Shown: positions 7,292 through 51,537 of the stretch, piece after piece
How positions within the stretch are numbered: the first letter of the stretch is position 1
How the letters are laid out: each line of letters starts with the position of its first letter
DNA from: an uncultured Pelagibacteraceae bacterium
GTDB lineage: Bacteria > Pseudomonadota > Alphaproteobacteria > Pelagibacterales > Pelagibacteraceae
DNA length: 64,000 nt
Direction of reading: 5' to 3'
Assembly (NCBI GenBank): GCA_902623495.1
Contig: CACNTW010000001.1
Location: forward strand, 1-64,000
Program-made: the position numbers and the translations under genes
The notes under the pieces: generated by a model
What the model was told of the DNA's origin: nothing
Seen by the model: the letters and a program-made list of their open reading frames with translations, nothing else
Databases searched by the model: none

Positions 7292-7299
7292 ATTTGCTA

Positions 7300-25146: not shown

Positions 25147-26329
25147 AAATATATTCACTTATTGTTTTATTTCATCATTATTTTTGTTTTCATTAATTTG
25201 TATTTGGAAAATCTTAGTTACATTACAAGGAATTGAATTAACAAATTTTAATTTTAATAAATTATTTACCTTTGGAATAGTTCTATGTTTAATAAATCTT
25301 TTAATTGGAAAAAAATTAAATTTAAATATTAAAATTACTATACTTGCTCTTTTATTTTCTATCTTTGATTATTTTATCTCTATAAATTTACCAATTTGGT
25401 ACAGTTTTGGCATATTCTTAATATCATTATTTTTTTTCAATAATATTAAAGATTACGACAAAAACTTTTTGTCAAAAAATCATTCTTCTCAAAAATTATT
25501 CTTTAATTTTTTAACATTGTTTGGAATTACACTGTTTTCTTTTGTAATTCTTTTTCCTTTTTATATGATGTTAATTACAAGCTTCAAAACTCAAGCATTA
25601 TTATTATTAAACCCCTTAGACTTTAGTATTAATTTTGCCCGAGGTTTACCAGAATTATTCAAGTCTTATTTTGTAGTATTCAAAGATTACAATTTCGGAA
25701 GATATATGCTGACGAGTACAATTGTCTCTTTAGGAACTGTAATTATAACATTAATTTTTGCAATTCCAGCTGCTTATGCAGTTGCAAGACTTAACTTTTT
25801 TGGGAAAAATTTTTTATCAACATCCATATTGATAATCTATTTGTTTCCAGCAATAGTTTTGGTGATACCTTTGTATACAATTTTTAGTCAACTAGGTTTA
25901 AGAAATTCTATTGAAGGTTTACTAATAGTTTATACAGCTACAACTCTACCTGTAGCAATTTATATGCTGCAGGGTTACTTCAAAAGTATACCAAAAGAAC
26001 TTGAAGAAGCTGGCATAATAGACGGTCAAAATTGGCTTGGTATAATTTTTAAAATTATACTTCCGCTAAGTTTGCCTGCAATATCATCGGTAGCCTTGTA
26101 TGTATTTATGATAGCTTGGAATGAATTTTTATTTTCGTTAATGTTTTTAGATAGACCTAATACATTTACATTATCAAGAGCAATTCAGTTTCTTAATGTT
26201 GGAGCTGAAACTCCTAGACAATATTTGATGGCAGGGTCTGTAGTAGTAACATTACCTATTTTAATAATTTTTGTTTACTTTGAAAAATATTTAGTAAGTG
26301 GTCTTACCGCAGGAAGTGTCAAAGGATAA
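25136..26329 (+). CDS. Sugar-type ABC transporter permease 2, with extra N-terminal helices
   Basis: This 397-residue permease contains a normal MalG/UgpE core from about residue 125 (FNFLTLFGITLFSFVILFPF, then MLITSFK) and the EAA loop LEEAGIIDGQNWLGIIFKII. The last helix is followed by YLVSGLTAGSVKG, the typical MalG C-terminus. The first ~120 residues add about four hydrophobic helices not found in the ~280-residue family standard. Its start overlaps the preceding permease gene by 11 bases and its stop abuts the hydrolase ATG. Both permeases of this transporter are therefore enlarged at the N-terminus. Confidence 0.85.
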   Translation: MKIKNIFTYCFISSLFLFSLICIWKILVTLQGIELTNFNFNKLFTFGIVLCLINLLIGKKLNLNIKITILALLFSIFDYFISINLPIWYSFGIFLISLFFFNNIKDYDKNFLSKNHSSQKLFFNFLTLFGITLFSFVILFPFYMMLITSFKTQALLLLNPLDFSINFARGLPELFKSYFVVFKDYNFGRYMLTSTIVSLGTVIITLIFAIPAAYAVARLNFFGKNFLSTSILIIYLFPAIVLVIPLYTIFSQLGLRNSIEGLLIVYTATTLPVAIYMLQGYFKSIPKELEEAGIIDGQNWLGIIFKIILPLSLPAISSVALYVFMIAWNEFLFSLMFLDRPNTFTLSRAIQFLNVGAETPRQYLMAGSVVVTLPILIIFVYFEKYLVSGLTAGSVKG

Positions 26330-27597: not shown

Positions 27598-28744
27598 TTG
27601 GAATTATCCGACCACAATTTGGGTTGGAGAGAACAGAATTCAAGATCTAAGCCTAGCATGTAAAAATCTAAAAATCGATAAACCATTATTTGTCACAGAT
27701 AAGGATTTAATTAATCTAAAAATGGTTCAAGATATTATTTTAGATTTAAAAAAAACCTTTAATCATCTTCAAGTGTTTTCAAATTTTTCAGGTAATCCTG
27801 TAGGCGAGAATGTGGAAGAGGGAGTAGGGGAGTTTAAAAAATTAGGTTGTGATGGAGTTATTGCATTTGGTGGTGGCAGCGGTCTTGATGTAGGTAAAGC
27901 TATTGCTTTTATGTCAGGACAGTCTAGACCAATATGGGATTTTGAAGATATAGGTGATTATTGGAAAAGAGCAGATGAAACTAACATTGCACCTATCATT
28001 GCTGTACCCACTACAGCAGGGACAGGATCAGAAACTGGAAGAGCATCAGCTATAATCAATAAACAAACAGGTATAAAAAAAATTATTTTCCACCCGAAAT
28101 TTTTACCTTCAATTGTAATTTTAGATCCTAATTTAACTTTAGATCTTTCTCCAAGATTGACTGCAGCAACAGGTATGGATGCTTTGGCACACAATTTAGA
28201 AGCCTTTTGTGCACCAGGATTCCACCCGATGGCTGATGGAATTGCGATTGAGGGAATGAAGTTAATTAAAAACTCATTAATTAAAGCAGTTAAGAACGGT
28301 AAAGATTTAAATGCTAGAGCAGAATTATTAGCTTCAGCTAGTATGGGTTCTACCGCTTTTCAAAAAGGGCTTGGTGCTATTCATTCTTTAAGCCACCCTA
28401 TCAATGCACAATTTAATGTTCACCACGGTTTATCAAATGCTATCTTTATGCCTTATGTATTAACTTTTAACAAAGATATGATTGAAAAAAGGATAATTTC
28501 TATATGTGATTATCTCGAACTCGATAAAAGTTTTGATAGTTTTTTAAAGTGGATTTTAGAACTAAGAAAAGAATTAAATATACCGCATAAATTATCAGAA
28601 ATTGTTGATGTAAATAAAATAAATTTAGACCAGTTATCAGTTATGGCATTAGAAGATCCTTCAACTTCTACCAATCCAAGGACAATGAGCAAGGATGACA
28701 TGAAAGCACTTTATGAACATAGTATTTCAGGTAAATTATTTTAA
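27587..28744 (+). CDS. Iron-containing alcohol dehydrogenase
   Basis: This 385-residue group III metal-dependent alcohol dehydrogenase has the NAD-binding GGGSGLDVGKAIAF (~96-109), the substrate loop VPTTAGTGSETGRASAII, and metal ligands in GMDALAHNLEAF and in LGAIHSLSHPINAQFNVHHG. The family reduces or oxidises small alcohols, aldehydes and keto acids. Its tight coupling to the hydrolase suggests action on the released aglycone (for example glycerate, hydroxypyruvate or tartronate semialdehyde). It overlaps the hydrolase gene by 11 bases and touches the amidotransferase gene by one. The substrate cannot be read from sequence. Confidence 0.85.
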   Translation: MKFNWNYPTTIWVGENRIQDLSLACKNLKIDKPLFVTDKDLINLKMVQDIILDLKKTFNHLQVFSNFSGNPVGENVEEGVGEFKKLGCDGVIAFGGGSGLDVGKAIAFMSGQSRPIWDFEDIGDYWKRADETNIAPIIAVPTTAGTGSETGRASAIINKQTGIKKIIFHPKFLPSIVILDPNLTLDLSPRLTAATGMDALAHNLEAFCAPGFHPMADGIAIEGMKLIKNSLIKAVKNGKDLNARAELLASASMGSTAFQKGLGAIHSLSHPINAQFNVHHGLSNAIFMPYVLTFNKDMIEKRIISICDYLELDKSFDSFLKWILELRKELNIPHKLSEIVDVNKINLDQLSVMALEDPSTSTNPRTMSKDDMKALYEHSISGKLF

Positions 28745-31323: not shown

Positions 31324-32580
31324 ATGCAGAAATATTCAGTATTTAGTCTAATCAAAAACGCTTTCTCCAATCACCAAAATTGGGAAGTTGCTTGGAAAGA
31401 TCCAACACCAAAAAGTGAATATGATGTAGTCATCATCGGAGGTGGAGGACACGGTCTTGCTACTGCATATTATTTAGCAAAAGAACATAATATTAGAAAT
31501 GTAGCTATCATTGAGAAAGGCTGGATTGGTGGTGGAAATGTTGGTCGAAATACAACGATCATAAGATCAAATTTTATGTACGATGCTAATGCAAGATTTA
31601 ATGAATTTGGAATGGATTTATGGAGAAACTTAAGTCAAGAACTGAACTTTAATGTGATGTTTTCTCCAAGGGGAATAATAAACTTAGCCCATTCAGATGC
31701 TCAAATGAATGCATATGCTCGAAGAGGAAACTCTATGAGATTAAATGGAATAGATGCAAAGTTATTGGATAGAGACGAAGTTAAAAAATTAATTCCAATG
31801 GCTGACTTTAGTGATGAAGTACGTTTCCCAATTTTTGGAGGCTTAATGCAACCAAGCGCTGGTACAGCAAGACATGACGCTGTTGCTTGGGGATATGCGC
31901 GTCAAGCAGATGATATGGGAGTAGATATAATACAACACTGTGAGGTCAATGGTTTTGATGTTGTTAACGGAAAGATAAAAGGAATAAGAACTTCAAGAGG
32001 AGATATTAAAGCAAAAAAAGTTGGATTATGTGTTGCGGGTAGCACAAATATATTAGCTGAAAAATTAAATATGACACTGCCAATAGAAACTCATGTACTG
32101 CAAGCTTGTGTTTCAGAACCTGTAAAACCATTATTAGACGGAGTAGTAACTTTTGGTGCAGGCCACTTTTATATAAGTCAATCAGATAAAGGTGAGATGG
32201 TAATGGGTGGTGATCTTGATGGATATAATAGTTATGCTCAAAGAGGCAACTTGCCAACTATACAACATGTATTGACAGGTGGCTTAGCTTTGTTTCCATT
32301 TTTAAGTAGATTAAAAATGTTAAGGACATGGGGAGGAATCATGGATATGTCTATGGATGGTTCTCCAATAATTGATAAAACTCATATTGAAGGTTTATAT
32401 TTAAATTGCGGATGGTGTTATGGAGGTTTTAAATCAACTCCTGTCTCAGGTTGGACATTTGCTCATACAATTGCACAAGATCAAGTTCATGAATTAAATT
32501 CAGAATTAAGATTAAATAGATTTTCTACAGGCCATCTTTTAGATGAAAAAGGTTTAGGAACTAAAACCTGGATTGGTTAA
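31324..32580 (+). CDS. soxB: Heterotetrameric sarcosine oxidase beta subunit (or N-methylglutamate dehydrogenase MgdA)
   Basis: This 418-residue flavoprotein has the FAD motif YDVVIIGGGGHGLATAYYLA (~37-56) and GGGNVGRNTTIIRSNF. The C-terminal LYLNCGWCYGGFKSTPVSGW block closes the FAD site. In the four-subunit enzyme, beta carries FAD and covalent FMN and oxidises the N-methyl group. The gene order B-D-A-G is shared by sarcosine oxidase and NMG dehydrogenase, which are homologous. Since gmaS and mgsABC are in the same window, either or both substrates are plausible. The start is an ATG 121 bases from the divergent fhs start. Confidence 0.9.
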   Translation: MQKYSVFSLIKNAFSNHQNWEVAWKDPTPKSEYDVVIIGGGGHGLATAYYLAKEHNIRNVAIIEKGWIGGGNVGRNTTIIRSNFMYDANARFNEFGMDLWRNLSQELNFNVMFSPRGIINLAHSDAQMNAYARRGNSMRLNGIDAKLLDRDEVKKLIPMADFSDEVRFPIFGGLMQPSAGTARHDAVAWGYARQADDMGVDIIQHCEVNGFDVVNGKIKGIRTSRGDIKAKKVGLCVAGSTNILAEKLNMTLPIETHVLQACVSEPVKPLLDGVVTFGAGHFYISQSDKGEMVMGGDLDGYNSYAQRGNLPTIQHVLTGGLALFPFLSRLKMLRTWGGIMDMSMDGSPIIDKTHIEGLYLNCGWCYGGFKSTPVSGWTFAHTIAQDQVHELNSELRLNRFSTGHLLDEKGLGTKTWIG

Positions 32581-32583
32581 AAA

Positions 32584-32853
32584 ATGTTATACATCAAATG
32601 TCCTTATTGCGGTTTAAGAGCACAAAAAGAATTTTCATATGGAGGTGATGCAACTGTAAAAAGACCTAATATAAATGAAGAAGTATCAAGTGAAGATTGG
32701 GATAATTTTGTTTATATGAGAAAAAGTCCAAGAGGGAAGCATATAGAGTTATGGCAACATATAGCTGGATGTAGACAATGGATTAAGGTGCAAAGAGACA
32801 CCGCAACACATGAAATTTTCCAAACAGCAAAAGTCACAGAAGAAATAAGATGA
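32584..32853 (+). CDS. soxD: Sarcosine oxidase delta subunit (zinc-binding)
   Basis: This 89-residue protein is the normal size for the delta subunit. Zinc ligands are visible as C6, C9 (KCPYCGLR), H59 and C63 (LWQHIAGCRQWIKVQRDT). It also has the family stretch DWDNFVYMRKSPRGKHIELW. It is a structural subunit binding Zn in the heterotetramer. It lies three bases after soxB and overlaps soxA by four (ATGA), so coupling is tight. Confidence 0.93.
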   Translation: MLYIKCPYCGLRAQKEFSYGGDATVKRPNINEEVSSEDWDNFVYMRKSPRGKHIELWQHIAGCRQWIKVQRDTATHEIFQTAKVTEEIR

Positions 32854-35846
32854 GCCAACCATTTAGATTAAATAAAGAGGGATTAATTAATCGAAACAAA
32901 AAAATATCTTTTACTTTTAATGGTAAAAAATTATTTGGATATGAAGGTGATACAATTGCATCTGCTTTGATTGCAAATGGAATACACCTAGTTGGTAGAA
33001 GTTTTAAGTATCATAGACCTAGAGGATTTTTTGGTGCAGGAGTAGAGGAGCCAAACGCAAAGCTTCAAGTAGAATTCAATGGTCATTCAGAACCCAATGT
33101 TAATGCAACAGAAATGGAGCTTGTTGAAGGTTTATCGGCAACGAGCCAAAATTGTTGGCCATCAGTAAATTTTGATATCGGTGCAATTAATAATTTTTTA
33201 AAAATGTTTTTCCCTGCTGGTTTTTATTACAAAACATTTATGTGGCCTAAAAGTTTTTGGTATAAAATTTATGAGCCTTTCATCAGAAAAGCTGCAGGAT
33301 TAGGGGTTGCTTCAATAGAAAAAGATAAAGAAAGATACGAACATAAATTTGAGTATTGTGATCTATTGGTTACTGGATCTGGACCATCTGGATTAGCAAG
33401 CGCTTATGCTGCTGCAAAAAATGGAGCAAAAGTAATTTTAGCTGAGGATAAACCAAGATTTGGAGGAACACTTTTAACCGATGATGTAAGCATCGATAAC
33501 TTATCAGGAAAAGATTGGGCGGAAAAAATAATTACTGAATTAAAATCTATGCCTAATGTCACTGTAAAAAATAGATCTCAAGTTTTTGGTTACTATGATC
33601 ATAACATGCTGGTAATGTTTGAGAGAGTTAGTGATCATTTAGAGAAAAAATCAAAATTCACCCCAAGACAAAGACTTTGGTATATTAGAGCCAAAGAAAC
33701 AATTTTATCAACTGGTTCAATTGAAAGACCGATTGTATTTGGTAATAATGATACCCCGGGAATTTTTTTATCAGCAGCTGCGAAAGAATATATGAAAGTC
33801 TTCGGAGTATTGGTTGGAAAGAAACCTTTAATATTTACAAATAACGATAGCGCATATGAAACAGCTTTAGAGTTCAAAAAAAATAATGTTGAACCAATTA
33901 TATTAGATACAAGAGAAGAACATTCATCAGAATTAATTGATGAAGCTAAATCAAAGGGAATTGATATAAGATTTTCTCACGGTGTTATTGTTGCTAATGG
34001 ATACAAAAAAGTTAAATCTGCAAAAATTGGTAAACTGAATAAAGATAAAAATTCTTTTGAGAAAATTGAAACTATAGAATGTGATTGCATTTGCGTGTCT
34101 GGATTTTGGACACCATCTGTTCATTTAGCATCACAATCAGGAAATAAACTTAAGTATGAAGAAAAAATTGATGCATTTATTCCAGATAAGAAAAAACAAC
34201 ATGAGACATCAGTCGGTGCAGCAAATGGATCATTTACATTAGAAGAAAGTTTAAAACATGGTTTTGAAAATGGTTCAAATCTTTCCGCAAAAATTACAGA
34301 AACTAAAACTGAAATTACAATTCCAAATGTAAATGAAAAGAAATATGGAGCTCATGATAAATTTTGGTGTATGCCGTTACCTAAAAATGAAAATCCAAAA
34401 AGATTTGTTGACTTTCAAAATGATGTATCTGTCTCTGATATAGAAATCGCACTAAGAGAAGGTTACAGATCAATAGAGCATGTCAAAAGATATACAACTC
34501 TTGGAATGGCAACAGATCAAGGCCGTACAAGTAATTTAAATGGTCTTCAGTTGGTATCTAATATAGAAAATAAAATAGTTCCTGAAGTAGGACACACAAC
34601 ATTTAGACCACCTTTCACACCAATTACAATCGGGACAATAGTTGGTCGTGAAGTAGGTATGGAATATATGCCGACAAGAAAAACCCCAATGCATGAATGG
34701 CATGAGAAAAATAATGCTGTTTTTGTCGATGCAGGTGCCTGGAAGAGACCTCGATATTACAAACAAGGAAATGAAACTTTATTTGAAGCTTCAAAGAGAG
34801 AGGCAAAAAATGTTAGAGAGAACGTTGGTATCTGTGATGTAACAACATTAGGAAAAATTGATATCAAAGGTTCAGACGCAGCAGAATTTTTAAATAGAGT
34901 TTATACAAATGCTTGGATGAAATTACCTGTTGGAAAAGCAAGATATGGATTAATGCTCAGAGAAGATGGAATTGTGATGGATGATGGAACAACAACAAGG
35001 ATTTCAGAAAATCATTATCATATGACCACTACAACTGCACAAGCTGCAAATGTTTTATCTCATTTAGAATATTATCTTCAAATTGTTTGGCCAGAATTAA
35101 ACGTAAATGTTGTCTCTACAACTGAGCAATGGGCAGGAGCTGCAATTGCTGGACCTAAATCTAGAGACATGTTATCAAAATTATATCCAGACCTAGACGT
35201 ATCAAATGATGCTTTGCCTTTTATGGGCTATAGAGAAGCAGAATTTTTTGGTGTTCCATCAAGAATTTTTAGAATTTCATTTTCTGGTGAGCTTGCATAT
35301 GAGATTAATGTCAAATCAGATCATGGTATGTTCATGTGGGAGAAAATGATGGAAGTAGGAAAAGAATTTGGAAATCAGCCTTACGGAACTGAAGCTTTAT
35401 CAACATTAAGAATTGAAATGGGTCACGTTGCAGGACCAGAATTAGATGGCCGAACAATCCCATCAGATGTTTCACTAAATGGATTAGTTTCAAAGAAAAA
35501 AGATTTTATTGGCAAAAATTCTTTAGGAAGAAAAGCATTTAATGTTGAGAGTAGACAAAAAATTGTTGGACTTATTCCAATTGATAGAAAGTCTAGTATT
35601 CCTGAAGGATCCCATATTGTTCAAGATCAGAATGCAAAATTACCAAACCCTAAACTTGGTCACGTTTCTTCTTCTTGTTGGAGTGTAGAAAATAATAATC
35701 CATTTTCCCTAGCAATTATGAAAGATGGAAAAAACATGATAGGTAAAAAGTTTTTTGCGGTATCACCATTAAAAAATAAATCAATTGAAGTAGAAGTTAT
35801 ATCTTCACATTATGTTGACCCAGAAGGAAAAAGAGTTAGATCATGA
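32850..35846 (+). CDS. soxA: Sarcosine oxidase alpha subunit
   Basis: This 998-residue multidomain alpha subunit has a 2Fe-2S-fold-like N-terminal domain (~1-110, FNGKKLFGYEGDTIASALIA), an NAD-binding domain with LLVTGSGPSGLASAYAAAKN (~170-190), and a C-terminal THF-binding GcvT domain (~610-998) with ISFSGELAYEINVKSD and GTEALSTLRIEMGHVAGPEL. It moves the oxidised methyl group to THF as 5,10-methylene-THF while regenerating the amine product. Full length, no frameshift. It overlaps soxG by four bases. Confidence 0.94.
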   Translation: MSQPFRLNKEGLINRNKKISFTFNGKKLFGYEGDTIASALIANGIHLVGRSFKYHRPRGFFGAGVEEPNAKLQVEFNGHSEPNVNATEMELVEGLSATSQNCWPSVNFDIGAINNFLKMFFPAGFYYKTFMWPKSFWYKIYEPFIRKAAGLGVASIEKDKERYEHKFEYCDLLVTGSGPSGLASAYAAAKNGAKVILAEDKPRFGGTLLTDDVSIDNLSGKDWAEKIITELKSMPNVTVKNRSQVFGYYDHNMLVMFERVSDHLEKKSKFTPRQRLWYIRAKETILSTGSIERPIVFGNNDTPGIFLSAAAKEYMKVFGVLVGKKPLIFTNNDSAYETALEFKKNNVEPIILDTREEHSSELIDEAKSKGIDIRFSHGVIVANGYKKVKSAKIGKLNKDKNSFEKIETIECDCICVSGFWTPSVHLASQSGNKLKYEEKIDAFIPDKKKQHETSVGAANGSFTLEESLKHGFENGSNLSAKITETKTEITIPNVNEKKYGAHDKFWCMPLPKNENPKRFVDFQNDVSVSDIEIALREGYRSIEHVKRYTTLGMATDQGRTSNLNGLQLVSNIENKIVPEVGHTTFRPPFTPITIGTIVGREVGMEYMPTRKTPMHEWHEKNNAVFVDAGAWKRPRYYKQGNETLFEASKREAKNVRENVGICDVTTLGKIDIKGSDAAEFLNRVYTNAWMKLPVGKARYGLMLREDGIVMDDGTTTRISENHYHMTTTTAQAANVLSHLEYYLQIVWPELNVNVVSTTEQWAGAAIAGPKSRDMLSKLYPDLDVSNDALPFMGYREAEFFGVPSRIFRISFSGELAYEINVKSDHGMFMWEKMMEVGKEFGNQPYGTEALSTLRIEMGHVAGPELDGRTIPSDVSLNGLVSKKKDFIGKNSLGRKAFNVESRQKIVGLIPIDRKSSIPEGSHIVQDQNAKLPNPKLGHVSSSCWSVENNNPFSLAIMKDGKNMIGKKFFAVSPLKNKSIEVEVISSHYVDPEGKRVRS

Positions 35847-36421
35847 AAAATGTTTCTGCACTAGAAAATATTCATAAACATGGATTGTTTGGTAACCACG
35901 ATAGCAAAGATGAGTTAATACATATTAAAGAAATCAAAGATGTTTTGATTTATCAAATTGTTAAATATAAAAAATCTTCAATTAGTATTGATAAAATAAA
36001 AATAGATAATTTAAATTTACCTGAGACACTCTTGGTATCTTCAAATACTAATACAAGAATTTTATGGATGGGACCTGATAATTGGTTAGTCGTTTCAAAA
36101 AATAAAGAAATAGAAAAATCTATTTTAGAGAGCTTAAGTCATGATGATTTTGCATTAACAGATCTATCTCATTCAAGAACAATACTTGAATTAGAAGGTT
36201 CTTTGGTAGATGAAGTATTGAAAAAAGGTTGTCCGTTAAATTTAGATGGTCTTGATGAAGGAAAATGTTCTAATTCTGCTTTTCATGCAATTACAATAAC
36301 TATTGATTTTATTAGTTCAAATCCAAGAAAAGTAAGAATATTTGCTTTAAGAAGTTTTGGTGAATCTCTTTATCATTCAATAACTGATGCTTGTTTAGAA
36401 TTTGGCTATAAAGCTGAATAA
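35843..36421 (+). CDS. soxG: Sarcosine oxidase gamma subunit
   Basis: This 192-residue protein matches the weakly conserved gamma subunit (SoxG), which is a GcvT-like fold without catalytic residues. Supporting features are RILWMGPDNWLVVSKN, the TDLSHSRTILELEG stretch and KGCPLNLDGLDEGKCSNSAFH. It holds the complex together. Identification rests mostly on those blocks and on its place as fourth gene of the B-D-A-G operon, overlapping soxA by four bases. The convergent BT1 transporter gene ends four bases away. Confidence 0.88.
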   Translation: MKNVSALENIHKHGLFGNHDSKDELIHIKEIKDVLIYQIVKYKKSSISIDKIKIDNLNLPETLLVSSNTNTRILWMGPDNWLVVSKNKEIEKSILESLSHDDFALTDLSHSRTILELEGSLVDEVLKKGCPLNLDGLDEGKCSNSAFHAITITIDFISSNPRKVRIFALRSFGESLYHSITDACLEFGYKAE

Positions 36422-41274: not shown

Positions 41275-42243
41275 ATGAATTATCGAATTGATAATCTTCA
41301 GTATTGTAATTGGTCTAGAGAAATCTTTGAAATAAATAATAAAGCTGGATTAAATGCGGTTCACGTAACGTTAGTTTATCATGAAGACTACGATGAATTA
41401 CAACAAAGAATACATGAGTGGAATAAACATTTTGAAGAAAATAAAGATCTTATATTTCTAGGCAATAACTACAATGATATTACAAAAGCAAAAGAAGAAA
41501 ACAAAACTGCAATTTTTTTTGGATTTCAAAATTGTTCTCCAATTGAAGATGACATAGGTCTTATAGAAAAAGTACATTCACAAGGTTGTCGATTTATGCA
41601 ATTAACTTATAACAACCAATCATTATTAGCCACTGGATGTTATGAAAAAAATGATAGCGGAGTTACTAATTTTGGAAAAGAGGCTATTAAAGAAATGAAT
41701 AGAGTAGGTATCGTTGTTGACATGTCTCATTCAGCAGAGAAAAGTACACTTGATGCAATTGAAATTAGCCAAAAACCAATTGCAATCACTCATGCAAATC
41801 CTACTTTTTGGTTTGAAGCTAAAAGAAATAAATCTACAGAATTATTAAAAGTTTTATCTGATAGTGGAGGAATGTTAGGTTTATCATTGTATGCTCACCA
41901 TTTAAAAGATGGAACAAATTGTAAAATAGAAAGTTTTTGTGAAATGGTTGCAAGAACAGTTGAAATTATGGGTATTGATAATGTTGGAATAGGATCAGAC
42001 TTATGTTTGAACCAACCAGACAGTGTAGTTGAGTGGATGAGAAATGGAACTTGGTCAAAATCAAAAAATTTTGGTGAAGGCAGTAAAGATAAACCTGGTT
42101 TTCCAAAACAACCAGATTGGTTTTTGGATGCAAGAGGATTTAATAATATAAACACAGAACTAAAAAATAAAGGTTTTCACGAAGAAGAGATAAATAAGAT
42201 ACTTGGCAATAACTGGTTTAATTTTTATAAAGGAATTAATTAA
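41275..42243 (+). CDS. M19 dipeptidase-like amidohydrolase lacking the N-terminal HxD metal motif
   Basis: This 322-residue protein aligns by pattern with peptidase M19 (renal-dipeptidase family): FFGFQNCSPIEDD (metal Glu region), VVDMSHSAEKSTLDAI and ITHANP (later His ligands), and NVGIGSDLC (Asp region). The N-terminal DxHxD element of active dipeptidases is replaced by RIDNLQYCNWSREIFEIN, so a key His-x-Asp pair is absent. Similar M19-like proteins sit beside dimethylglycine-catabolism genes in pseudomonads, as far as I recall. The gene opens a tight four-gene unit. I predict an altered substrate or metal set rather than ordinary dipeptidase activity. Confidence 0.78.
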   Translation: MNYRIDNLQYCNWSREIFEINNKAGLNAVHVTLVYHEDYDELQQRIHEWNKHFEENKDLIFLGNNYNDITKAKEENKTAIFFGFQNCSPIEDDIGLIEKVHSQGCRFMQLTYNNQSLLATGCYEKNDSGVTNFGKEAIKEMNRVGIVVDMSHSAEKSTLDAIEISQKPIAITHANPTFWFEAKRNKSTELLKVLSDSGGMLGLSLYAHHLKDGTNCKIESFCEMVARTVEIMGIDNVGIGSDLCLNQPDSVVEWMRNGTWSKSKNFGEGSKDKPGFPKQPDWFLDARGFNNINTELKNKGFHEEEINKILGNNWFNFYKGIN

Positions 42244-43895
42244 TGCAAGTTCCACTAAGAGATCCTAAAATTGTAATGAAACTTTCTAGGCTTGGATCGT
42301 TTCATCAATCTAAATTATCTTTTCTAAGATCATTTTTAAATGAGTTCAAAGATTGGAAATATAACAGAGATTTGTTTGACTTGAATGATAGGGGATATGG
42401 AGTAGCTATTTATTCATTTTCAAAAGATAAAAAAACATATTCTTTAGTTTGTTTTGCTAATGAGCTTAAAGATGAGGAAAGATCTGATAGAGTAATAGCA
42501 ACTAAATGGGATGCTGCATTTGCTTTGTATGATGGCATTCCTTCAAAAATTGATATTGATAGACTTTCACAAAATGTCCCTAAACAAGAAGTAGGTAGAC
42601 TTTCTTATAAAGAACTAACTCTCTCAAGAGCAAATAGATCAGTTAGAGCATTTAATTATGTGGTTGAGTGTTTATCAAAAGGTATCCAGCCAAATACTAA
42701 TGAGCTTTCAAAAGTTGGATATTTGTACAGAACAACTGCAGTATATGGCTCAGGAAAATTTGGATTAGCAGACAGGTTTAGAATTAAAAATAGAGATGAA
42801 ATAAATGGTCCTTTTAGATTGGAAATGATGTTGGTTTATCTTGTAAGACAATTCACTTTCGATCAAGTAAATCATATAGCAAAACATAAAAATCCTAAAG
42901 ATGCTGTAGAACTGAACTTGGATATTTGCAGAAATTTAGGAATTGGTAATTCAACTGGATTGGGAATGGCACCATTTATTGTAAACCACCCTTCATTGTT
43001 AAATAATTGGATTCTAGCTAAAGAAACAGCTTTAAAAAAAATAAGAGAAATAGAAAAAGTATCAGAAGAAGAGTTTAAAATTTTTTACAACTGTTTAACA
43101 AAATCTTTAAAAAATGTAACTTCATGGAATACTGATAGTGAATATCAAAAGAAGAAAATTGAGAATTTAATTAATGATTTACAAAATTTAATCAATTATT
43201 TGAAAGACAATATTCATAAATCAAATTTTTATATATTCGACAAATTATACAATTGGGCGGAGGAAAATTTATCCGAAGAAGGAGTTGAGTATTTGGTTTC
43301 TATAATGATGGAACCATATAATAAAATAACCGATCCTTTGATTTCTCAAATGAGTTCAGACGAGGATAGTAGTTTTAATATACCTGTAGACAGAACTATA
43401 AATGACCTAAGAGAAATAATTGAAAAAAATTATTCAGATATTTTAAAAATTGATTTTTCAAAAAATGAAAACAATAAAAAATTTTGGTTCATTTCAAAAA
43501 ATAAAGAAGAACCTAGGATTGGAGATCGGTTTGAAGATAATGGCTCAGAACTTGAGCAGCCTACAGCTATTGCTAGAGATATTAAAAAACTTTATGAAAC
43601 TATTTTTACATTAAAAAACAGCTTAAAGATTGGCAATTTTCTAGTACAGAACAATGATTTAAGACATATTGTAAGAAGAGTGTTTATAACAGAGAAATAT
43701 CCATATTCTGAAATTCAAGATAACACCATTGGCTCAAAATTAGTTCCTATTGATATGTTAAGACTTAAACTATCTTTTTTTGGGGCGGTAAAGTTTGATC
43801 CAAGATCTGATAAATGGTTAAGGATTTGTATGTTTCAAGGAGCTCCATTACCAAATGAACTGAATTCATTTAATCAATATTGGATATATAACTAA
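42243..43895 (+). CDS. Conserved-looking hypothetical protein (550 aa), module with M19-like and DUF3726 genes
   Basis: I do not recognise the family. It is a soluble, mixed alpha/beta protein with no signal peptide. Distinct stretches include RDLFDLNDRGYGVAIYSF (~45-62), a domain with SRANRSVRAFNYVVECLSKG (~128-147), GSGKFGLADRFRIKNRDE (~168-185), LGIGNSTGLGMAPFIVNHP (~230-248), and a C-terminal part with RDLRHIVRRVFITEKYPYS-like sequence. The first half is less Lys-rich and more patterned than its surroundings, suggesting strong conservation. Its ATG overlaps the M19-like stop (TAATG), so it is translationally coupled. An enzyme of an unknown catabolic step is my best guess. Confidence 0.7.
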   Translation: MQVPLRDPKIVMKLSRLGSFHQSKLSFLRSFLNEFKDWKYNRDLFDLNDRGYGVAIYSFSKDKKTYSLVCFANELKDEERSDRVIATKWDAAFALYDGIPSKIDIDRLSQNVPKQEVGRLSYKELTLSRANRSVRAFNYVVECLSKGIQPNTNELSKVGYLYRTTAVYGSGKFGLADRFRIKNRDEINGPFRLEMMLVYLVRQFTFDQVNHIAKHKNPKDAVELNLDICRNLGIGNSTGLGMAPFIVNHPSLLNNWILAKETALKKIREIEKVSEEEFKIFYNCLTKSLKNVTSWNTDSEYQKKKIENLINDLQNLINYLKDNIHKSNFYIFDKLYNWAEENLSEEGVEYLVSIMMEPYNKITDPLISQMSSDEDSSFNIPVDRTINDLREIIEKNYSDILKIDFSKNENNKKFWFISKNKEEPRIGDRFEDNGSELEQPTAIARDIKKLYETIFTLKNSLKIGNFLVQNNDLRHIVRRVFITEKYPYSEIQDNTIGSKLVPIDMLRLKLSFFGAVKFDPRSDKWLRICMFQGAPLPNELNSFNQYWIYN

Positions 43896-43903
43896 AGTAA
43901 TTA

Positions 43904-44512
43904 ATGAGAAGTTATAGTGAAATTGACACGATTGTTAAACGTTCAACAAAAGCGAAAGGTTTCTCCTGGGGAGTTGCAGAAGAAATAGGAAAGAACATCA
44001 AGCAACTCGAGTTATTTGGTTTACCAGGAATAAAACATATAAACCAATATTTTAAGATTTTTAATAATGAGAAGTTTGAAAATTGCCAATCTTTTAACAA
44101 AAGCAACAGACCTCAAAACTTTTACTGTCCAATTAAACTTGGATTAAGTTTTTTTGATCAATCTATCTCTATCCAAGAACTAAATGATATAGAAATTGAA
44201 AAAATGGCTTACCCATTGATATTTTTGCCGTTTGTCAGCAGATCTTCGGAAATAACAGGAAAGAGAATTTTTTTAAAGATAGATCAAAAAGAATTTTTAT
44301 TAAATTTCAATCAATCAATTTATTCAAATTATTTAAGTAGTGAGGTTGTAGAAAAAGCCGATGTAATTAAAATCCAATTCTTAGAAAACAAGAATAATTT
44401 TTCCGACGAAGATTGGAAAGAATTAACAAAATTATCTGAAAACACATTTGTTGAAGAAACAGATGAATTAAAACAAAAAACTGCAGGAGCAGGATTAACA
44501 GATAATGACTGA
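43904..44512 (+). CDS. DUF3726 family protein
   Basis: This 202-residue protein starts MRSYSEIDTIVKRSTKAKGF and has SWGVAEEIGKNIKQLELFGL, the N-terminal block I associate with DUF3726 proteins of marine alphaproteobacteria. The middle is variable, and a segment IEKMAYPLIFLPFVSRSSE (~96-114) gives a hydrophobic core. No catalytic motif is evident. It lies 8 bases after the 550-residue gene and overlaps the zinc-ribbon ORF by 8 bases. The function is unknown; the constant pairing with the two upstream genes is the useful clue. Confidence 0.7.
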   Translation: MRSYSEIDTIVKRSTKAKGFSWGVAEEIGKNIKQLELFGLPGIKHINQYFKIFNNEKFENCQSFNKSNRPQNFYCPIKLGLSFFDQSISIQELNDIEIEKMAYPLIFLPFVSRSSEITGKRIFLKIDQKEFLLNFNQSIYSNYLSSEVVEKADVIKIQFLENKNNFSDEDWKELTKLSENTFVEETDELKQKTAGAGLTDND

Positions 44513-44672
44513 TAACTTTGAATATAAATCGGACAAATCAGATAAAAATGAATTAAATGATATTTGTGATGAATGTAAAAAAGAAGATGAGACAGTAACT
44601 CAAAATTTAATACTCACAGGATATAAACTTTGTAACTCCTGCAGAACATCAAAAACTTTATTTCCACTTTAA
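44505..44672 (+). CDS. Small zinc-ribbon protein (55 aa)
   Basis: A short ORF starting at the ATG that overlaps the end of the DUF3726 gene (ATGACTGA, 8-base overlap). The N-terminal ~18 residues are acidic and polar. Two CxxC knuckles follow, C21-x2-C24 (ICDECKK) and C43-x2-C46 (LCNSCRT), spaced 18 residues apart, which is a rubredoxin/zinc-ribbon arrangement. Such proteins bind Zn or Fe and act in transcription or redox steps. It fills space exactly to the convergent Yip1 gene. The four cysteines in a 55-residue frame make chance unlikely. Confidence 0.7.
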   Translation: MTDNFEYKSDKSDKNELNDICDECKKEDETVTQNLILTGYKLCNSCRTSKTLFPL

Positions 44673-45359: not shown

Positions 45360-46715
45360 TCACTTACTGACTACTTCTCTTGTATTTGCGTTGTAAGATT
45401 CTGTAAATGGAATATCAACTACAACTGCATCAACTGGTTCCCCAGGTTTATCAGAATATTTTTCTGGTAGATGGACTTTAAATTTCGATCCAACCTTACC
45501 TCTTGGAAAACCATTTGCATTTAGCGTGCCATCAAATGGAACATATCCCATAGCAATATTTTTCCCCTTTTCTGGGTGATACCATGGAGAAGTTATAAAT
45601 CCTACAGGCTCACTGCCGTTTTCTGAAATTAACCAAAAATCTGGAGCATATTCTTCAATAGGTTTTCCTCCTAATTCAAGTCCAACTAATTGAAGTTTGT
45701 AAGGTTTATGACCTGCTTTTAAATCAGCTTTCATTTTCTCGAGAGCTTTTTTACCAATGTAATCTGCTTTTTTGTTCCATTCACCTTTACCAGATAAAGA
45801 AACTTGATATCCAAGATTACATTGAAATGGATTATGCTCATGATCCATATCTTGTCCCCATGAAAGAATTCCAGCTTGTATCCTTCTATGGTGTGCAGGA
45901 GCAATTACCATTAAGTTATGTTTTTTACCTGCTTCAAGAACAGCATTCCACATATCTTCGGCATATAAAGTTGCTTCTCTTAAATATATTTCAAATCCAG
46001 ACTCGCCTGAAAAACCTGTTTGAGAAATTATACAACTTCTTCCACCAACTTTTGCAGAAGCCAATCCATAAAAAGGCATGTTATCAATATCAACTTCACT
46101 TCCACAAAGATCTTTCATCAAAGCTTTTGCTTTAGGACCTTGAATTTGTACAGGACAAGCATCTATTTCATTAATTTGAACATTAAACCTTTCATCTGCA
46201 TTTACTCCTTGCAGATATAATCCTATATCACTATCTGATAAACTAAACCAAAATTCATCTTTAGAAATTCTTAAAAGAATAGGATCATTTAATACTCCTC
46301 CATAAGAATTACACAAAATTACATATCTTCCTCTCATTGGAGAAATTTTTGTAGCATCTCTTGTAATTACATAATCAACAAATTTTTCTGCATCTGGTCC
46401 TTTAACTTGTATTTGTCTTTCAACTGCAACATTCCACATTGTTACATGGTTTTTAATTGCTTCGTACTCAACCATTGCACCACCATCTTCAGGTTTAACA
46501 TAACCTCTTGGATGATAAATTCTGTTATAAACAGTTGCTCTCCAACATCCTGCTTTCATAGATAAATGCCAGTATGGAGATTTCCTTACTCTTGTTGATA
46601 TTAGCATCTCAACTTTAGTAGGTCCGCTTTGCCTTAAATTGTATGGTACTTTTCTATCAGACTGATCTACTGATGTTGTATGTCTTAGTTTACTATAGTC
46701 AAATTCATTAGACAT
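45360..46715 (-). CDS. DmdA-like tetrahydrofolate-dependent methyltransferase (GcvT family)
   Basis: This 451-residue GcvT-type protein has blocks close to the DMSP demethylase clade: MWNVAVERQIQVKGPDAEKF (~93-112), a VLNDPILLRISKDEFWFSLS stretch, ADERFNVQINEI region, PVQIQGPKAKALMKDL, ISQTGFSGESGFEIYLRE and RRIQAGILSWGQDMDHEHNPF. DmdA in SAR11 is about 370 residues; this one has an extra ~60 at the N-terminus (SVDQSDRKVPYNL region) and a longer tail. The product would be 5-methyl-THF, and a MetF-like gene overlaps upstream by 8 bases. The methyl donor is unknown; glycine-cleavage T protein itself is excluded by its shorter family length and different motifs. Confidence 0.8.
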   Translation of the reverse strand: MSNEFDYSKLRHTTSVDQSDRKVPYNLRQSGPTKVEMLISTRVRKSPYWHLSMKAGCWRATVYNRIYHPRGYVKPEDGGAMVEYEAIKNHVTMWNVAVERQIQVKGPDAEKFVDYVITRDATKISPMRGRYVILCNSYGGVLNDPILLRISKDEFWFSLSDSDIGLYLQGVNADERFNVQINEIDACPVQIQGPKAKALMKDLCGSEVDIDNMPFYGLASAKVGGRSCIISQTGFSGESGFEIYLREATLYAEDMWNAVLEAGKKHNLMVIAPAHHRRIQAGILSWGQDMDHEHNPFQCNLGYQVSLSGKGEWNKKADYIGKKALEKMKADLKAGHKPYKLQLVGLELGGKPIEEYAPDFWLISENGSEPVGFITSPWYHPEKGKNIAMGYVPFDGTLNANGFPRGKVGSKFKVHLPEKYSDKPGEPVDAVVVDIPFTESYNANTREVVSK

Positions 46716-47436
46716 AGTTATTCTCCTTCAACCACTTGTTAGTTTCCTTCAAGCCGCCGAATGTATAAATGTGGAAATAATCAGTATGCGATTTAACTTT
46801 CCCAATTAAATCATTAGGGTCTTTAGGTTTCAATAAATCTAACGCCTTACTAAAATTAGATTTAAGAAAGTTAATGGAATTTTTTGCCCCTACAATATTA
46901 GCAAATTTAATTAAGCTAGATATTTTCATTGGCCCAGTTATTCCAACATGAACTGGTATTGTTTGTTTTGAGATAAAATCTATAATAGGCTGAGTATCCA
47001 TTAGCCATTGTGTAACTATATAATCAGCATAAGGCTTTTTATCTATCATAGCTTTTTCTAAATCAGAGTCGGATATATCAGGACTCCCCTCGGGATGTCC
47101 AGCAATTCCAATCTTGATGCCATCAAAAAACCCTGTCTCTAACATTTGATATGAGCTATCAAATTTTCCGATCGGGTCACGACTTCCACCTATCACCAAG
47201 ACCTGCTTAACACCCAAATCTTTACATCTAGAAACATAATCTTTTAGCTGATTTTCATCATTTATTGACCTTGCTGGGAAGTGAGGAACTGGATTAAATC
47301 CCTCTTTAACTAACTCTCCAGATTGTTGAGCAGTTTCTTTATAATCACCTCCAGGTAGCATTGTAACATAAACATCTTTTACCTTAGGCAATGTACTTAA
47401 ATCAGTTTTAGGACCTATTTCTAAAGAAAAATTCAT
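46708..47436 (-). CDS. Methylenetetrahydrofolate reductase-like protein (short MetF family)
   Basis: About 242 residues from an ATG at 47436; the TTG two codons upstream is less likely. It shows the MetF TIM-barrel landmarks in compressed form: VYVTMLPGGDYKETAQQSGE, FNPVPHFPARSI (the V-P-H motif), VKQVLVIGGSRDP and KIGIAGHPEGSPD, then ADYIVTQWLMDTQ. It is about 50 residues shorter than standard MetF (~290-300). Overlap with the DmdA-like gene suggests that it oxidises the 5-methyl-THF made there, or acts as a dedicated partner. A reducing direction for methionine synthesis is the alternative. Confidence 0.8.
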   Translation of the reverse strand: MNFSLEIGPKTDLSTLPKVKDVYVTMLPGGDYKETAQQSGELVKEGFNPVPHFPARSINDENQLKDYVSRCKDLGVKQVLVIGGSRDPIGKFDSSYQMLETGFFDGIKIGIAGHPEGSPDISDSDLEKAMIDKKPYADYIVTQWLMDTQPIIDFISKQTIPVHVGITGPMKISSLIKFANIVGAKNSINFLKSNFSKALDLLKPKDPNDLIGKVKSHTDYFHIYTFGGLKETNKWLKENNYV

Positions 47437-47540
47437 AACCAAATTCTTAATTGTTTTATATTCCGTGTCTATAAAAATATTAAACAGCTGAACACATTGT
47501 AACCCATTGTCATGATCCGAAAATTTAATTAAATTTAGTC

Positions 47541-48758
47541 ATGGAAAATAAATTATCTCAAATTACAGAATTATTCTCCAAAACAAGACAGCAAACGCTA
47601 TCTCTGTGCGAAAACTTAGAGGCTGAGGATATGGTCATACAGCCCAGCAAAAATGTTAGCCCACTTAAGTGGCATCTTGGTCACACCACATGGTTCTTCG
47701 AAAAATTCATCTTGTCAGAATTAGATGATAGTTACAAACCTTTTAACAAAGATTACAATTACATATTTAATTCATATTATAATTCTGTGGGTGAGTACAA
47801 TCCTCGAAATAAGAGAGGTTCACTAAATAGACCCATCTTAAAAGATGTTGTAAAATATAGACACTATGTAACTGAAAATATTATTGATTTTTTAAAAAGG
47901 ACAAAAAATAACAGGACATCATTTTTAGTTGAACTAGGTTCAAATCACGAACAACAGCATCAAGAATTAATGTTAATGGATATTAAAAATATTTTTTACA
48001 ACAATCCATTGATGCCGACTTATAATTCTAACGATGATAAACCAACTGCTAAAGAAGAAAATGAATTGACATTAGAAACTAGTAAAAAATTTAAATATGG
48101 AAATAACGAGGATATTTTTTGTTACGATAACGAATTACCAGTATCAGAAACACAATTAGATCCTTTTAAAATATATTCATTTGTTACTAATGGAGAGTGG
48201 AAAGAATTTATTAATGATGGAGGATATAAAAACCATGAGTATTGGTTATCTGATGGATGGGATTTTGTAAATAATAACAAATTACAAAAACCAATGTATT
48301 GGATAGATAATAATAATTATTTTACATTAAACGGTGTAAAAAAAATTGATAATGAAAAGCCAGTTTCTCATATAAGTTTCTATGAAGCAGATGCATTTGC
48401 AAGATATAAAAACAAAAGATTACCAACTGAATTTGAACTAGAGTATTTTTTAAAACAATCTGAGAAAAAAGGTAATTTTTTAGAAAATAAAATTTTCCAT
48501 GAAGTGGAAGAAAAAGCAGACGATGTTTACGGAAATTTATGGGCTTGGACAAGTAGTAATTACACACCTTACAAAAAATATAAACCTTATGAAGGAAATC
48601 TAGGAGAATATAATAATAAGTTCATGTGTAATCAGTTTGTCTTAAAAGGTGGCTCACATTCTACGTCTATTAATCATGTCAGAGCATCTTATAGAAATTT
48701 CTTTTACCCAAGTGATACTTGGCAGTTTTGTGGTGTCAGACTAGCTGATGACATCTAG
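47541..48758 (+). CDS. egtB: Ergothioneine biosynthesis protein EgtB (sulfoxide synthase)
   Basis: This 405-residue protein has an N-terminal DinB-like helical domain and a C-terminal FGE-sulfatase/formylglycine-type domain (~170-400). Candidate iron ligands are H48 (WHLGHTTWFFEK) and H136, H140 (GSNHEQQHQELMLMDI), matching the three-histidine facial triad of EgtB. The end shows LKGGSHSTSINHVRASYRNF and CGVRLADD, typical of the family. EgtB joins a thiol (gamma-glutamylcysteine or cysteine) to hercynine with O2. It overlaps egtD (TAGTG). OvoA would also contain a C-terminal methyltransferase, which is absent here. Confidence 0.9.
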   Translation: MENKLSQITELFSKTRQQTLSLCENLEAEDMVIQPSKNVSPLKWHLGHTTWFFEKFILSELDDSYKPFNKDYNYIFNSYYNSVGEYNPRNKRGSLNRPILKDVVKYRHYVTENIIDFLKRTKNNRTSFLVELGSNHEQQHQELMLMDIKNIFYNNPLMPTYNSNDDKPTAKEENELTLETSKKFKYGNNEDIFCYDNELPVSETQLDPFKIYSFVTNGEWKEFINDGGYKNHEYWLSDGWDFVNNNKLQKPMYWIDNNNYFTLNGVKKIDNEKPVSHISFYEADAFARYKNKRLPTEFELEYFLKQSEKKGNFLENKIFHEVEEKADDVYGNLWAWTSSNYTPYKKYKPYEGNLGEYNNKFMCNQFVLKGGSHSTSINHVRASYRNFFYPSDTWQFCGVRLADDI

Positions 48759-49720
48759 TGACTAATTTAAAATTAATAAACATAAACAATCAAATTCAAG
48801 ATGATAAAAAATTAATCTTACAAGGATTATTAAATAAAAAACAAAAATATTTACTACCTAAATATTTTTATGATGAGAAAGGTTCAAAGTTATTTAATAA
48901 AATTACAAACCTTAAAGAATATTACCCAACAAACAAAGAGTTAGAAATACTAGGTAGTTCACAAAAAGAGATAAGAAAGAAATTACCAATCAATTCAACA
49001 ATTGTAGAATTTGGTAGTGGCTCAAATAAAAAAATTAATAAATTTATAAATTCATTAAGTGAACCCAAAGAATATATTCCTATAGATATTAGTAAGGAAT
49101 ATTTGTTTGAAAATGCATCGATAATTGCAAAAAAATTCTCAGATTTAAAGGTAACAGCAATATGTGCCGACTTTAGTCAGACCAATAGATTAAATAAAAT
49201 TTTAAAAAATAAAAAAAAAATAGTCAGTTTTTTTCCAGGATCGACAATAGGAAATTATTTACCCAAAAATGCAAAAAAAATATTAAAAAATTTTTCAAAA
49301 ATTATAGGCAAAAATTCTTATTTAGTAATCGGGGTTGATTTAATCAAAAATAAGAAAACTCTTGAAAATGCTTACAACGATAAATCGGGAGTTACAGCAA
49401 AATTTAATAAAAATATATTAAATGTAGTAAACAAAATTTGTAATTCAAAATTTCAAACTAAAGATTTTGAACATAAAGCATTCTACAATTTAAAAAAAAA
49501 TAGAATTGAAATGCATCTTATTTCGAAAAAAAATTTCACGTTAAAAATTAATAAAAAGAATATTAAATTTACTAAAGATGAAATCATTCATACTGAAAAT
49601 TCTCATAAATATTCAAAAAATAACTTTGTTAAATTAGTTAATAAATCTGGCTTTAAAGTCTTAAAATATTTTACTGATAAAAAAAATTATTTTGGAGTTT
49701 TTTTATTAAAAGTGAAGTAA
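48758..49720 (+). CDS. egtD: L-histidine N-alpha-methyltransferase EgtD
   Basis: This 320-residue SAM-dependent enzyme has YLLPKYFYDEKGSKLFNKIT (~31-50), the SAM loop VEFGSGSNKKINKFI (~83-97), YIPIDISKEYL and the diagnostic SFFPGSTIGNYLPKNA. It trimethylates histidine to hercynine, the betaine precursor of ergothioneine. The GTG start overlaps the EgtB stop. The C-terminal two thirds are extremely Lys/Asn-rich, in line with the genome. EgtE/EgtC are not next to it, so the C-S lyase step must be encoded elsewhere or be nonspecific. Confidence 0.9.
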   Translation: MTNLKLININNQIQDDKKLILQGLLNKKQKYLLPKYFYDEKGSKLFNKITNLKEYYPTNKELEILGSSQKEIRKKLPINSTIVEFGSGSNKKINKFINSLSEPKEYIPIDISKEYLFENASIIAKKFSDLKVTAICADFSQTNRLNKILKNKKKIVSFFPGSTIGNYLPKNAKKILKNFSKIIGKNSYLVIGVDLIKNKKTLENAYNDKSGVTAKFNKNILNVVNKICNSKFQTKDFEHKAFYNLKKNRIEMHLISKKNFTLKINKKNIKFTKDEIIHTENSHKYSKNNFVKLVNKSGFKVLKYFTDKKNYFGVFLLKVK

Positions 49721-50361: not shown

Positions 50362-51537
50362 ATGTCAGAAATTTACAATATTATAGATAAACAAAAGTTA
50401 GATATTGTATCGAAACCAATTAGTGAAGCTCATGGTTTACCAAATGAATGTTACATCAGTAAAGAATATACTTTAATTGAAAGAAAAAAATTATTTGAAG
50501 ATAAGTGGATAGTAATAGGAGTAGGAAGTTCAATTCCAGATGCAGGGGATGTAAAACCAATTGATTTACTTGGAATACCTTTGCTTATTGTTAGAACAAA
50601 AAATAAAGAAATAAAAGTTTTTCATAATATTTGTAGTCATAGAGGAGTTAAATTAGTTAAAGAAGCTGGCAAAATTAGAAATGTTATGAGGTGCTCATAT
50701 CATTCATGGTCATATGACTTAGAGGGAAAATTAATTGCTACACCTCACATAGGAGGCATGAATATTCATCAAACACCTGAATTTGATAAATCAAAAAGTA
50801 ATTTAAAAGAGATAAGATCATATATTTGGTTAGATCTAATTATGATTAATATTAACAACAATGAAACTTCATTTGAGGATTACATTAGTCCTTTAAGTGA
50901 AAGATGGGCAAAATTTTGGCCTTTGAAAGATAGAGAATTAATTTATCATGCAAATGATTATGGTTATTTTAAATTAGATGCAAAATGTAATTGGAAATTT
51001 GCAATTGAAAATTATTGTGAGAGCTATCATTTGCCTTGGGTACATCCAGGTTTAAATTCTTATTCAAAATTAGAGGATCACTATCATATTCAAGGACTGC
51101 CAAATCGTTTCGCTGGACAAGGAACAGTTGTTTACAATCCAAGATTTGAAGGAAATGAAAAGTTTCCTTGTTTCCCTAACTGGCCGAAAGATAAAGAAAA
51201 TATAGCTGAGTACGTAGCACTTTTTCCTAACGTAATGTTAGGAATTCACAAAGATCATTATTATGCTTATTGGTTAGAGCCAATCAATCATGAGTTTACA
51301 ATAGAACATATGGAAATTTATTATGTAGGAGATGAAGCAGCAAATTCAACAAAATATAAATCCCTAAGACAAAAAAATCACAAACAATGGGAAGATATTC
51401 AAAAAGAAGATGTAGATATAATTCAAAGTATGCAAATAGGTAGAAACTCTCCAGCTTATAATGGTGGTAATTTTTCTCCAAAGATGGACAATCCTACACA
51501 TCATTTTCATAAGTGGGTTGCTGGTAATTTAATTTAA
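50362..51537 (+). CDS. Rieske non-heme iron oxygenase alpha subunit (betaine/carnitine demethylase-like)
   Basis: This 391-residue terminal oxygenase has the Rieske ligands C91, H93 (ICSHRGVKLV) and C111, H114 (CSYHSWSYDLEGK). The mononuclear iron site appears as NYCESYHLPWVHPG (N217, E220, H223, H228). The size and HR..SYHSW context fit quaternary-amine demethylases such as glycine betaine (GbcA), stachydrine or carnitine monooxygenases, but aromatic-ring substrates use the same fold. No reductase is adjacent; a 2Fe-2S ferredoxin is encoded 3 kb downstream. The location 5 kb before dmgdh suggests production of dimethylglycine from betaine (inference). Confidence 0.85.
   Translation: MSEIYNIIDKQKLDIVSKPISEAHGLPNECYISKEYTLIERKKLFEDKWIVIGVGSSIPDAGDVKPIDLLGIPLLIVRTKNKEIKVFHNICSHRGVKLVKEAGKIRNVMRCSYHSWSYDLEGKLIATPHIGGMNIHQTPEFDKSKSNLKEIRSYIWLDLIMININNNETSFEDYISPLSERWAKFWPLKDRELIYHANDYGYFKLDAKCNWKFAIENYCESYHLPWVHPGLNSYSKLEDHYHIQGLPNRFAGQGTVVYNPRFEGNEKFPCFPNWPKDKENIAEYVALFPNVMLGIHKDHYYAYWLEPINHEFTIEHMEIYYVGDEAANSTKYKSLRQKNHKQWEDIQKEDVDIIQSMQIGRNSPAYNGGNFSPKMDNPTHHFHKWVAGNLI

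Follow-up and report, generated by a model that had tools for sequence, protein, structure and literature searches.

The locus described here raises the question of what is done by a row of closely coupled genes that encode an M19-like protein, a 550-residue protein (U550), a DUF3726 protein and a 55-residue zinc-ribbon-like open reading frame (ORF). The genes lie on contig CACNTW010000001.1 of an uncultured Pelagibacteraceae (SAR11) bacterium, whose genome comprises 1.26 Mb in 31 contigs; we analyzed positions 1–64,000 of this contig, referred to below as the window. An earlier note, made from the sequence alone, had presented the four genes as one coupled module, and they are present as it described, with TAATG at 42241–42245 joining the M19-like and U550 genes, an 8-base gap (43896–43903) between the U550 and DUF3726 genes and an 8-base overlap (44505–44512) between the DUF3726 gene and the 55-residue ORF. 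We report that the M19-like, U550 and DUF3726 genes form a real, widely conserved three-gene module. As to its function, we lean towards the view that the three proteins are subunits or consecutive enzymes in the breakdown of an amino-acid betaine with a quaternary, N-methylated nitrogen, homarine (N-methylpicolinate) being the most likely.

Co-conservation was assessed in a sample of 398 Pseudomonadota genomes. The U550 search matched 30 of them; one match (G380, E 8.7e-4) was a chance match to RpoB, and the U550 count is therefore 29. DUF3726 occurred in 27 genomes, all among these 29, and in none of the 14 named control genomes. The M19 profile found 60 genomes at E 1e-60, where 31 matches scored at least 456 bits and the remainder at most 299 bits; the boundary of the M19 clade was set after this gap had been viewed. 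The 31 M19-clade matches fall in exactly the 29 genomes with U550, an overlap (29/29 among 398) with a hypergeometric probability of 1e-44, uncorrected for relatedness. An M19-clade gene lies within 3.5 kb of 31 of the 33 U550 genes (in one case on the opposite strand and in one downstream), the loci L121 and L138 having no M19 gene of the window's clade near U550, and a Pfam match to DUF3726 follows on the same strand within 120 bases in 29 of the 33. The other four have a DUF3726-type neighbor recognized by BLAST cluster (L134, L137 and L138) or by profile (L136, 3.7e-56), and in Mesorhizobium U550 and DUF3726 are fused into one protein of 814 residues. Among 97 Pelagibacteraceae loci chosen by U550, several of them short, M19 was present in all and DUF3726 in 95; U550 proper was found in 18 of 60 SAR11-family genomes (24 passed E 0.001, six of those solely via an RpoB-like match). 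The trio also occurs in Rhodobacterales, rhizobia and gammaproteobacteria, and U550 with a partner in a haloarchaeon. The neighborhood survey that the earlier note had proposed as a check thus bears out three of its four genes.

The fourth gene is an add-on of close relatives, outside the conserved trio. The 55-residue ORF gave only a ZZ match below the cut-off, and a small ORF with four cysteines (Cys4) is present in 83/97 of the Pelagibacteraceae loci (82/96 SAR11 loci in a second count) and in 4/5 loci of the window's genus, but in 0/11 loci of other SAR11 genera.

We then considered what the individual proteins could do. The M19-like protein matches Peptidase_M19 at 240.8 bits (cut-off 26), the match beginning at profile position 44, and the canonical N-terminal His-x-Asp (HxD) is absent, as the earlier note had remarked. 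The strand at this position reads D-N-L-Q-Y in the window, D-x-L-Q-Y in 26 of 27 aligned rows and D-x-L-Q-C in one. The one nearby H-x-D of the window protein, H36-E-D38, does not occupy the canonical position and is found in 3/27 rows; the others have N, T, S, G or V instead of D38, apart from the outlier L136 with an unrelated H-F-D. The bridging Glu is Gln in 27/27 rows, at a position that aligns with a Glu of 3id7. Neither element is thus intact in any aligned row. By contrast, H152, H173, R184, D242, E37, Q85, C122 and C222 are invariant in all 27, and we take H152, H173, R184 and D242 to be the second-site His pair, the Arg and the distal Asp of the M19 site. The protein therefore resembles peptidase M19 and renal dipeptidase in family score and in these four residues, while differing in the HxD and the bridging Glu. 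Because the HxD is lost and the bridging Glu is replaced, ordinary dipeptidase activity appears doubtful, in line with the earlier note. The M19 genes in, for example, L135, L140 and L147 lie beneath long opposite-strand frames.

Among solved proteins, the closest is 2i5g (E 5.7e-83), labeled an 'amidohydrolase', which we take to be PA5396 of Pseudomonas aeruginosa. Six PA5396-like M19 genes (L243–L248), 34–36% identical to the window M19, have likewise lost the HxD and carry Gln for the bridging Glu, with DgcA/DgcB-like neighbors by Pfam in two of the loci and DUF5943 in two. A larger group, of which the window clade is a separate branch, has therefore lost the classical zinc pair. A 'pepD' of PA5396-like type lies before dgcAB in Vibrio natriegens and P. 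aeruginosa (PMC12093977).

U550 gave nothing above chance against family profiles (best E 0.42) or in a PDB profile search (best E 0.099), no match to the Ldh profile and no relative in viral contigs. Foldseek returned no match at E 0.001 or better from a model with a predicted local distance difference test (pLDDT) score of 54.5. The earlier description of the largest protein as unrecognised thus holds in Pfam-type, PDB-profile and domain searches. A relationship to RpoB was dropped and treated as chance: only residues 356–490 match, at 19–26% identity, with E 1.6e-5 to 8e-4 in 6/60 SAR11-family genomes that are otherwise matchless and in three more cases beside true hits. Three RpoB-like loci were inspected; in two, the strand that was read carries a long frame, recognized as RpoB. 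The RpoB-like rows were excluded from the U550 counts.

The DUF3726 protein matches PF12525 at 65.8 bits (cut-off 22.1); the name was not found in the literature searched, and the window protein has no match to Ldh_2 (PF02615). A probable link to Ldh_2 dehydrogenases emerged through the haloarchaeon, where the gene after U550 encodes a 317-residue protein that matches Ldh_2 at 36.2 bits (cut-off 38.8), E 4.8e-9. A profile of DUF3726-type partners from which this protein had been left out (A7) finds it at 2.1e-13; with this profile, DUF3726 proteins of SAR11 and other alphaproteobacteria score from 4e-11 to about 1e-8. When DUF3726-type profiles were run against the PDB, Ldh_2 enzymes came top, with YiaK at 4.4e-4 when the haloarchaeal row was included and at 5.3e-4 when it was not; the match covers the N-terminal part and, in the run with that row, the last helix also. 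Profile A3 alone and the haloarchaeal partner alone gave no PDB match. In a search of 4,599 open frames with the Ldh profile, 17 of the 20 rows that followed the real Ldh proteins were DUF3726 (7 distinct proteins, E 0.11 to 0.78 each; 136 DUF3726 frames in the set), and the printed enrichment of 4e-24 is overstated because the rows repeat copies of one gene. Alignment by hhalign of DUF3726-type with Ldh profiles was weaker than the profile searches, with probabilities of 51.7, 42.3 and 6.7. VIA-align on a poor DUF3726 model (pLDDT 50) gave Ldh_2-type enzymes as its four best rows, the best with Z 4.4, a root-mean-square deviation of 5.5 and 163 aligned residues, where differences of up to 1 count as ties and unrelated proteins score up to 3.6; Foldseek found nothing at E 0.001 or better with this model. 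The His of the S-H-G motif, presumably the catalytic His of Ldh_2, is kept in 1/26 DUF3726 rows versus 10/11 Ldh rows in a column matched by eye. Known Ldh_2 enzymes (YiaK and the sulfolactate, ureidoglycolate and delta1-piperideine-2-carboxylate reductase types) are remotely similar to DUF3726-type proteins at both termini, but have about 335 residues and the SHG His, whereas DUF3726 has 202 residues and has lost it. By these comparisons, DUF3726 is probably a truncated and distant relative of the Ldh_2 dehydrogenases; common ancestry is likely, and dehydrogenase activity of DUF3726 itself unlikely.

Gene neighborhoods point to catabolism. On a plasmid of Ruegeria TM1040 the order is LysR, aldehyde dehydrogenase, M19, BCCT, U550, DUF3726 and Ldh, and comparable gene sets occur in Mesorhizobium, Sulfitobacter, Roseateles, Phaeobacter, Aminobacter and Pseudomonas; Paracoccus has an M19 gene without U550, beside RidA. 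Around the 32 other U550 loci of the survey we found M19 in 30, aldehyde dehydrogenase in 17, BCCT in 14 (with a betaine ABC transporter in one more), RidA in 11, LysR (at least 40%) in 8, Ldh in 7 and SoxA in 1. The operon aldehyde dehydrogenase is nearest, below the cut-off, to 2,5-dioxovalerate and alpha-ketoglutaric semialdehyde dehydrogenases. Of the 11 SAR11 loci from other genera, five (L232, L233, L234, L236 and L240) carry betaine ABC genes immediately upstream of the trio. An aldehyde dehydrogenase gene lies within about 1 kb downstream in three (L233, L237 and L239) and at about 3.5 kb in another two (L232 and L234). This SAR11 enzyme is 63% identical to an aldehyde dehydrogenase on contig 3 of the window's genome. 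The catabolic setting that the earlier note had suggested is thus supported by recurrent metabolic neighbors linked to betaine transporters.

A further link is to the family of sarcosine oxidase and N-methylglutamate dehydrogenase (Mgd). In L234 and L241, both from other SAR11 genera, the trio has nearby SoxB and SoxA genes that are 74–89% like those at 31324–35846 of the window. The SoxA proteins encoded near the operon in Ruegeria TM1040, G115 and Roseateles cluster (100/100) with SoxA from the gmaS/mgs loci L208, L213 and L214, separately from SoxA beside glyA or serine ammonia-lyase (L206, L212 and L211), and we read this clade as the putative Mgd branch. The window's genome carries a second SoxA-like gene (L216, G000:C1:202120-205089), which shares 49% identity with the SoxA of the window, and the window itself has mgsABC- and gmaS-like genes. 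PMC13390433, a 2026 paper, states that homarine catabolism involves Mgd, citing Ferrer-Gonzalez et al. (2026).

These neighbors suggest the following route. The betaine would be taken up by a BCCT or betaine ABC transporter, and U550 with DUF3726 would attack and open the N-methylpyridinium ring. Homarine has six carbons besides the N-methyl group and N-methylglutamate has five, so one carbon must leave; the rebuilt M19 protein would hydrolyze the ring-opened intermediate and release it. Aldehyde dehydrogenase would oxidize the resulting C5 aldehyde, the imine would be handled by RidA and, where the genes include one, an Ldh-type reductase, and N-methylglutamate would be formed, from which a SoxBDAG-type Mgd would give the methyl carbon to tetrahydrofolate, leaving glutamate. 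The type of the operon aldehyde dehydrogenase, RidA and the nearby folate genes would all fit such a route, which we propose from gene co-occurrence and order, residue loss, the likely homology of DUF3726, transporter and aldehyde dehydrogenase linkage and a few Mgd-clade loci.

Ferrer-Gonzalez et al. (2026; Nat Microbiol 11:1531) reportedly describe an operon, homABCDER, that occurs in Rhodobacterales, SAR11 and others and yields N-methylglutamate. The trio operon is probably this homarine operon. Several roseobacters have LysR with aldehyde dehydrogenase, M19, BCCT, U550 and DUF3726, that is, five genes and a regulator, and the possible involvement of Mgd (PMC13390433) would be a second likeness. 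The SAR11 trio would accordingly be an abbreviated version of a larger betaine operon, probably that for homarine. The earlier note had spoken of an undescribed catabolic or cofactor step; 'undescribed' is doubtful for the operon, given its probable identity with the one published in 2026, and fair for the enzymology, while no evidence was found for a cofactor role.

Several observations weigh against homarine catabolism by the SAR11 trio. Beside the trio in the window there is no LysR, aldehyde dehydrogenase or BCCT gene, which sets the locus apart from homABCDER; LysR is also missing near the trio in 16 SAR11 loci, and in the 97 SAR11 loci the roseobacter-type aldehyde dehydrogenase was found in 2, Ldh in 0 and BCCT in 0. 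The SAR11 aldehyde dehydrogenase is only 32% identical to that of the roseobacter operon and scores best, below the cut-off, as a betaine-aldehyde dehydrogenase. As regards SoxA, its linkage is rare (1/32 survey loci), only the Roseateles protein falls in the gmaS-linked subclade, those of TM1040 and G115 belong to a sister subclade of which no member was seen beside gmaS, and the tree gives no supported placement of the window SoxA in the Mgd clade (60/96). An M19 protein with a broken binuclear site may be no hydrolase, and the poor predicted structure of U550 (pLDDT 54.5) gives no structural support. Finally, distant paralogous sets of U550 with a small partner exist on Sinorhizobium meliloti pSymB (L251, 11944–15390), in Aminobacter (pAA02; L253, 9956–13364) and in a haloarchaeon (L252, 10091–12621). 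The first two include M19 and resemble the trio in having the three genes in a row, with an ABC transporter and RidA, but they have an IclR regulator, another order and 24–27% U550 identity to the window, and their regulators and transporters differ from those of the operon. Since these paralogous trios have other neighbors, the trio may serve several substrates. Trigonelline was dropped as a substrate of the S. meliloti paralog, because growth on it is lost with pSymA (PMC4207669) while the paralogous trio lies on pSymB.

The explanation that survives best beside homarine is that the catabolic role is right and the compound wrong, the trio acting on another betaine or N-methyl compound such as dimethylglycine, carnitine, proline betaine or N-methylproline; we regard this as unlikely but worth weighing. 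The paralogous trios come with other transporters and succinate-semialdehyde dehydrogenase, and the Mesorhizobium operon lies near genes for a glycine betaine ABC transporter, the trimethylamine methyltransferase family and a flavin adenine dinucleotide (FAD) oxidoreductase. A sister clade of M19 is at home in the P. aeruginosa cluster PA5396–PA5401, which presumably encodes M19, DUF5943, DgcA, DgcB and Etf; it shares the lost HxD and the Gln for the bridging Glu, but DUF5943 and DgcAB-like genes replace U550 and DUF3726, and the M19 proteins are about 35% identical. Those DgcA/DgcB-like genes belong to dimethylglycine demethylation (PMC12093977). The window-type clade nevertheless stands sharply apart from the PA5396-like proteins (456 versus 299 bits), and linkage to the Mgd clade, in few loci, points to N-methylglutamate rather than sarcosine. 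DUF5943, DgcA and DgcB are not among the genes around the window trio.

A regulatory or maturation role, in which two decayed folds would act on neighboring enzymes as binding or sensing subunits, seems improbable to us. The M19 metal site and the expected His of DUF3726 are both lost, and in some alphaproteobacteria (L135, L138, L140 and L147) the U550-DUF3726 genes lie beside tamA/tamB-like and YcjX-like (DUF463) genes, with no match to aldehyde dehydrogenase or a transporter within the 20-kb stretch. Yet the strict conservation of H152, H173, R184, D242, Q85 and C122 in 27/27 rows resembles a working site, and the metabolic neighbors recur. That the genes are accidental neighbors in a streamlined genome has next to no chance: the genomes of SAR11 are compact and the order also holds for purE/purK and dmdA, but the shared 29/398 genomes, the tight linkage, the occurrence in distant groups including the haloarchaeon and the U550-DUF3726 fusion refute it.

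Table 1. Features of the window that bear on the trio and its surroundings
Feature	Coordinates	Strand	Length	Remark
gmaS-like	3576–4901			56%
mgsC/B/A-like	7300–10475			
Second glutamine-synthetase-III-like gene	10493–11962			
Trimethylamine N-oxide demethylase	13798–16137			
SoxB-like subunit (sarcosine oxidase / N-methylglutamate dehydrogenase family)	31324–32580	+		possible downstream partner
SoxA-like subunit	32850–35846	+		close relatives adjoin the trio in L234 and L241
SoxG-like subunit	35843–36421	+		82.4 bits, below the 143.95 cut-off
M19-like protein	41275–42243	+	322 aa	Peptidase_M19 fold, atypical clade
U550	42243–43895	+	550 aa	no relatives detected; constantly accompanies the M19 clade and DUF3726
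DUF3726 protein	43904–44512	+	202 aa	Pfam PF12525 match
CxxC..CxxC zinc-ribbon-like ORF	44505–44672	+	55 aa	overlaps the end of the DUF3726 gene

Other genes of the window were noted in passing. A methylated-amine block, which includes the gmaS-like and mgsABC-like genes, spans 3576–16137. ABC transporter permease genes, followed by glucosylglycerate-hydrolase-like and iron alcohol dehydrogenase-like genes, occupy 22507–28744, all below the NCBIfam cut-offs. A GcvT-family gene (45360–46715; 239.5 against the NCBIfam DmdA cut-off of 410) and an MTHFR-like gene (46708–47442) are likely the SAR11 DmdA pair. Near the dmdA-like gene, a pair with FGE-sulfatase/DinB_2 and histidine-specific methyltransferase domains (47541–49720) is presumably EgtB/EgtD-like, of ergothioneine type, and the alpha subunit of a Rieske ring-hydroxylating oxygenase is encoded at 50362–51537. 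At gathering score, the window has no Rfam match.

Plankton is rich in betaines, homarine among them, and SAR11 bacteria rank among the main consumers of the ocean's small osmolytes. We tentatively raise the possibility that U550, DUF3726 and M19 make up a single complex of a new type that would dearomatize and open N-methylpyridinium rings without a recognizable flavin or oxygenase, paralogous complexes in rhizobia and haloarchaea taking other betaines. Two decommissioned folds would be put to use in such a complex, a dipeptidase that has lost its binuclear metal site and a dehydrogenase that lacks the catalytic His and a portion of the chain. The likely link between DUF3726 and Ldh_2, together with the rebuilt M19 site, would mean that two enzyme folds have been altered in step with one unknown protein. 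If the proposed catabolism is right, a compound common in plankton would be processed by a three-protein reaction, and if the trio is the ring-opening step, its presence would show which SAR11 bacteria can use homarine, U550 being carried by 18 of the 60 family members sampled.

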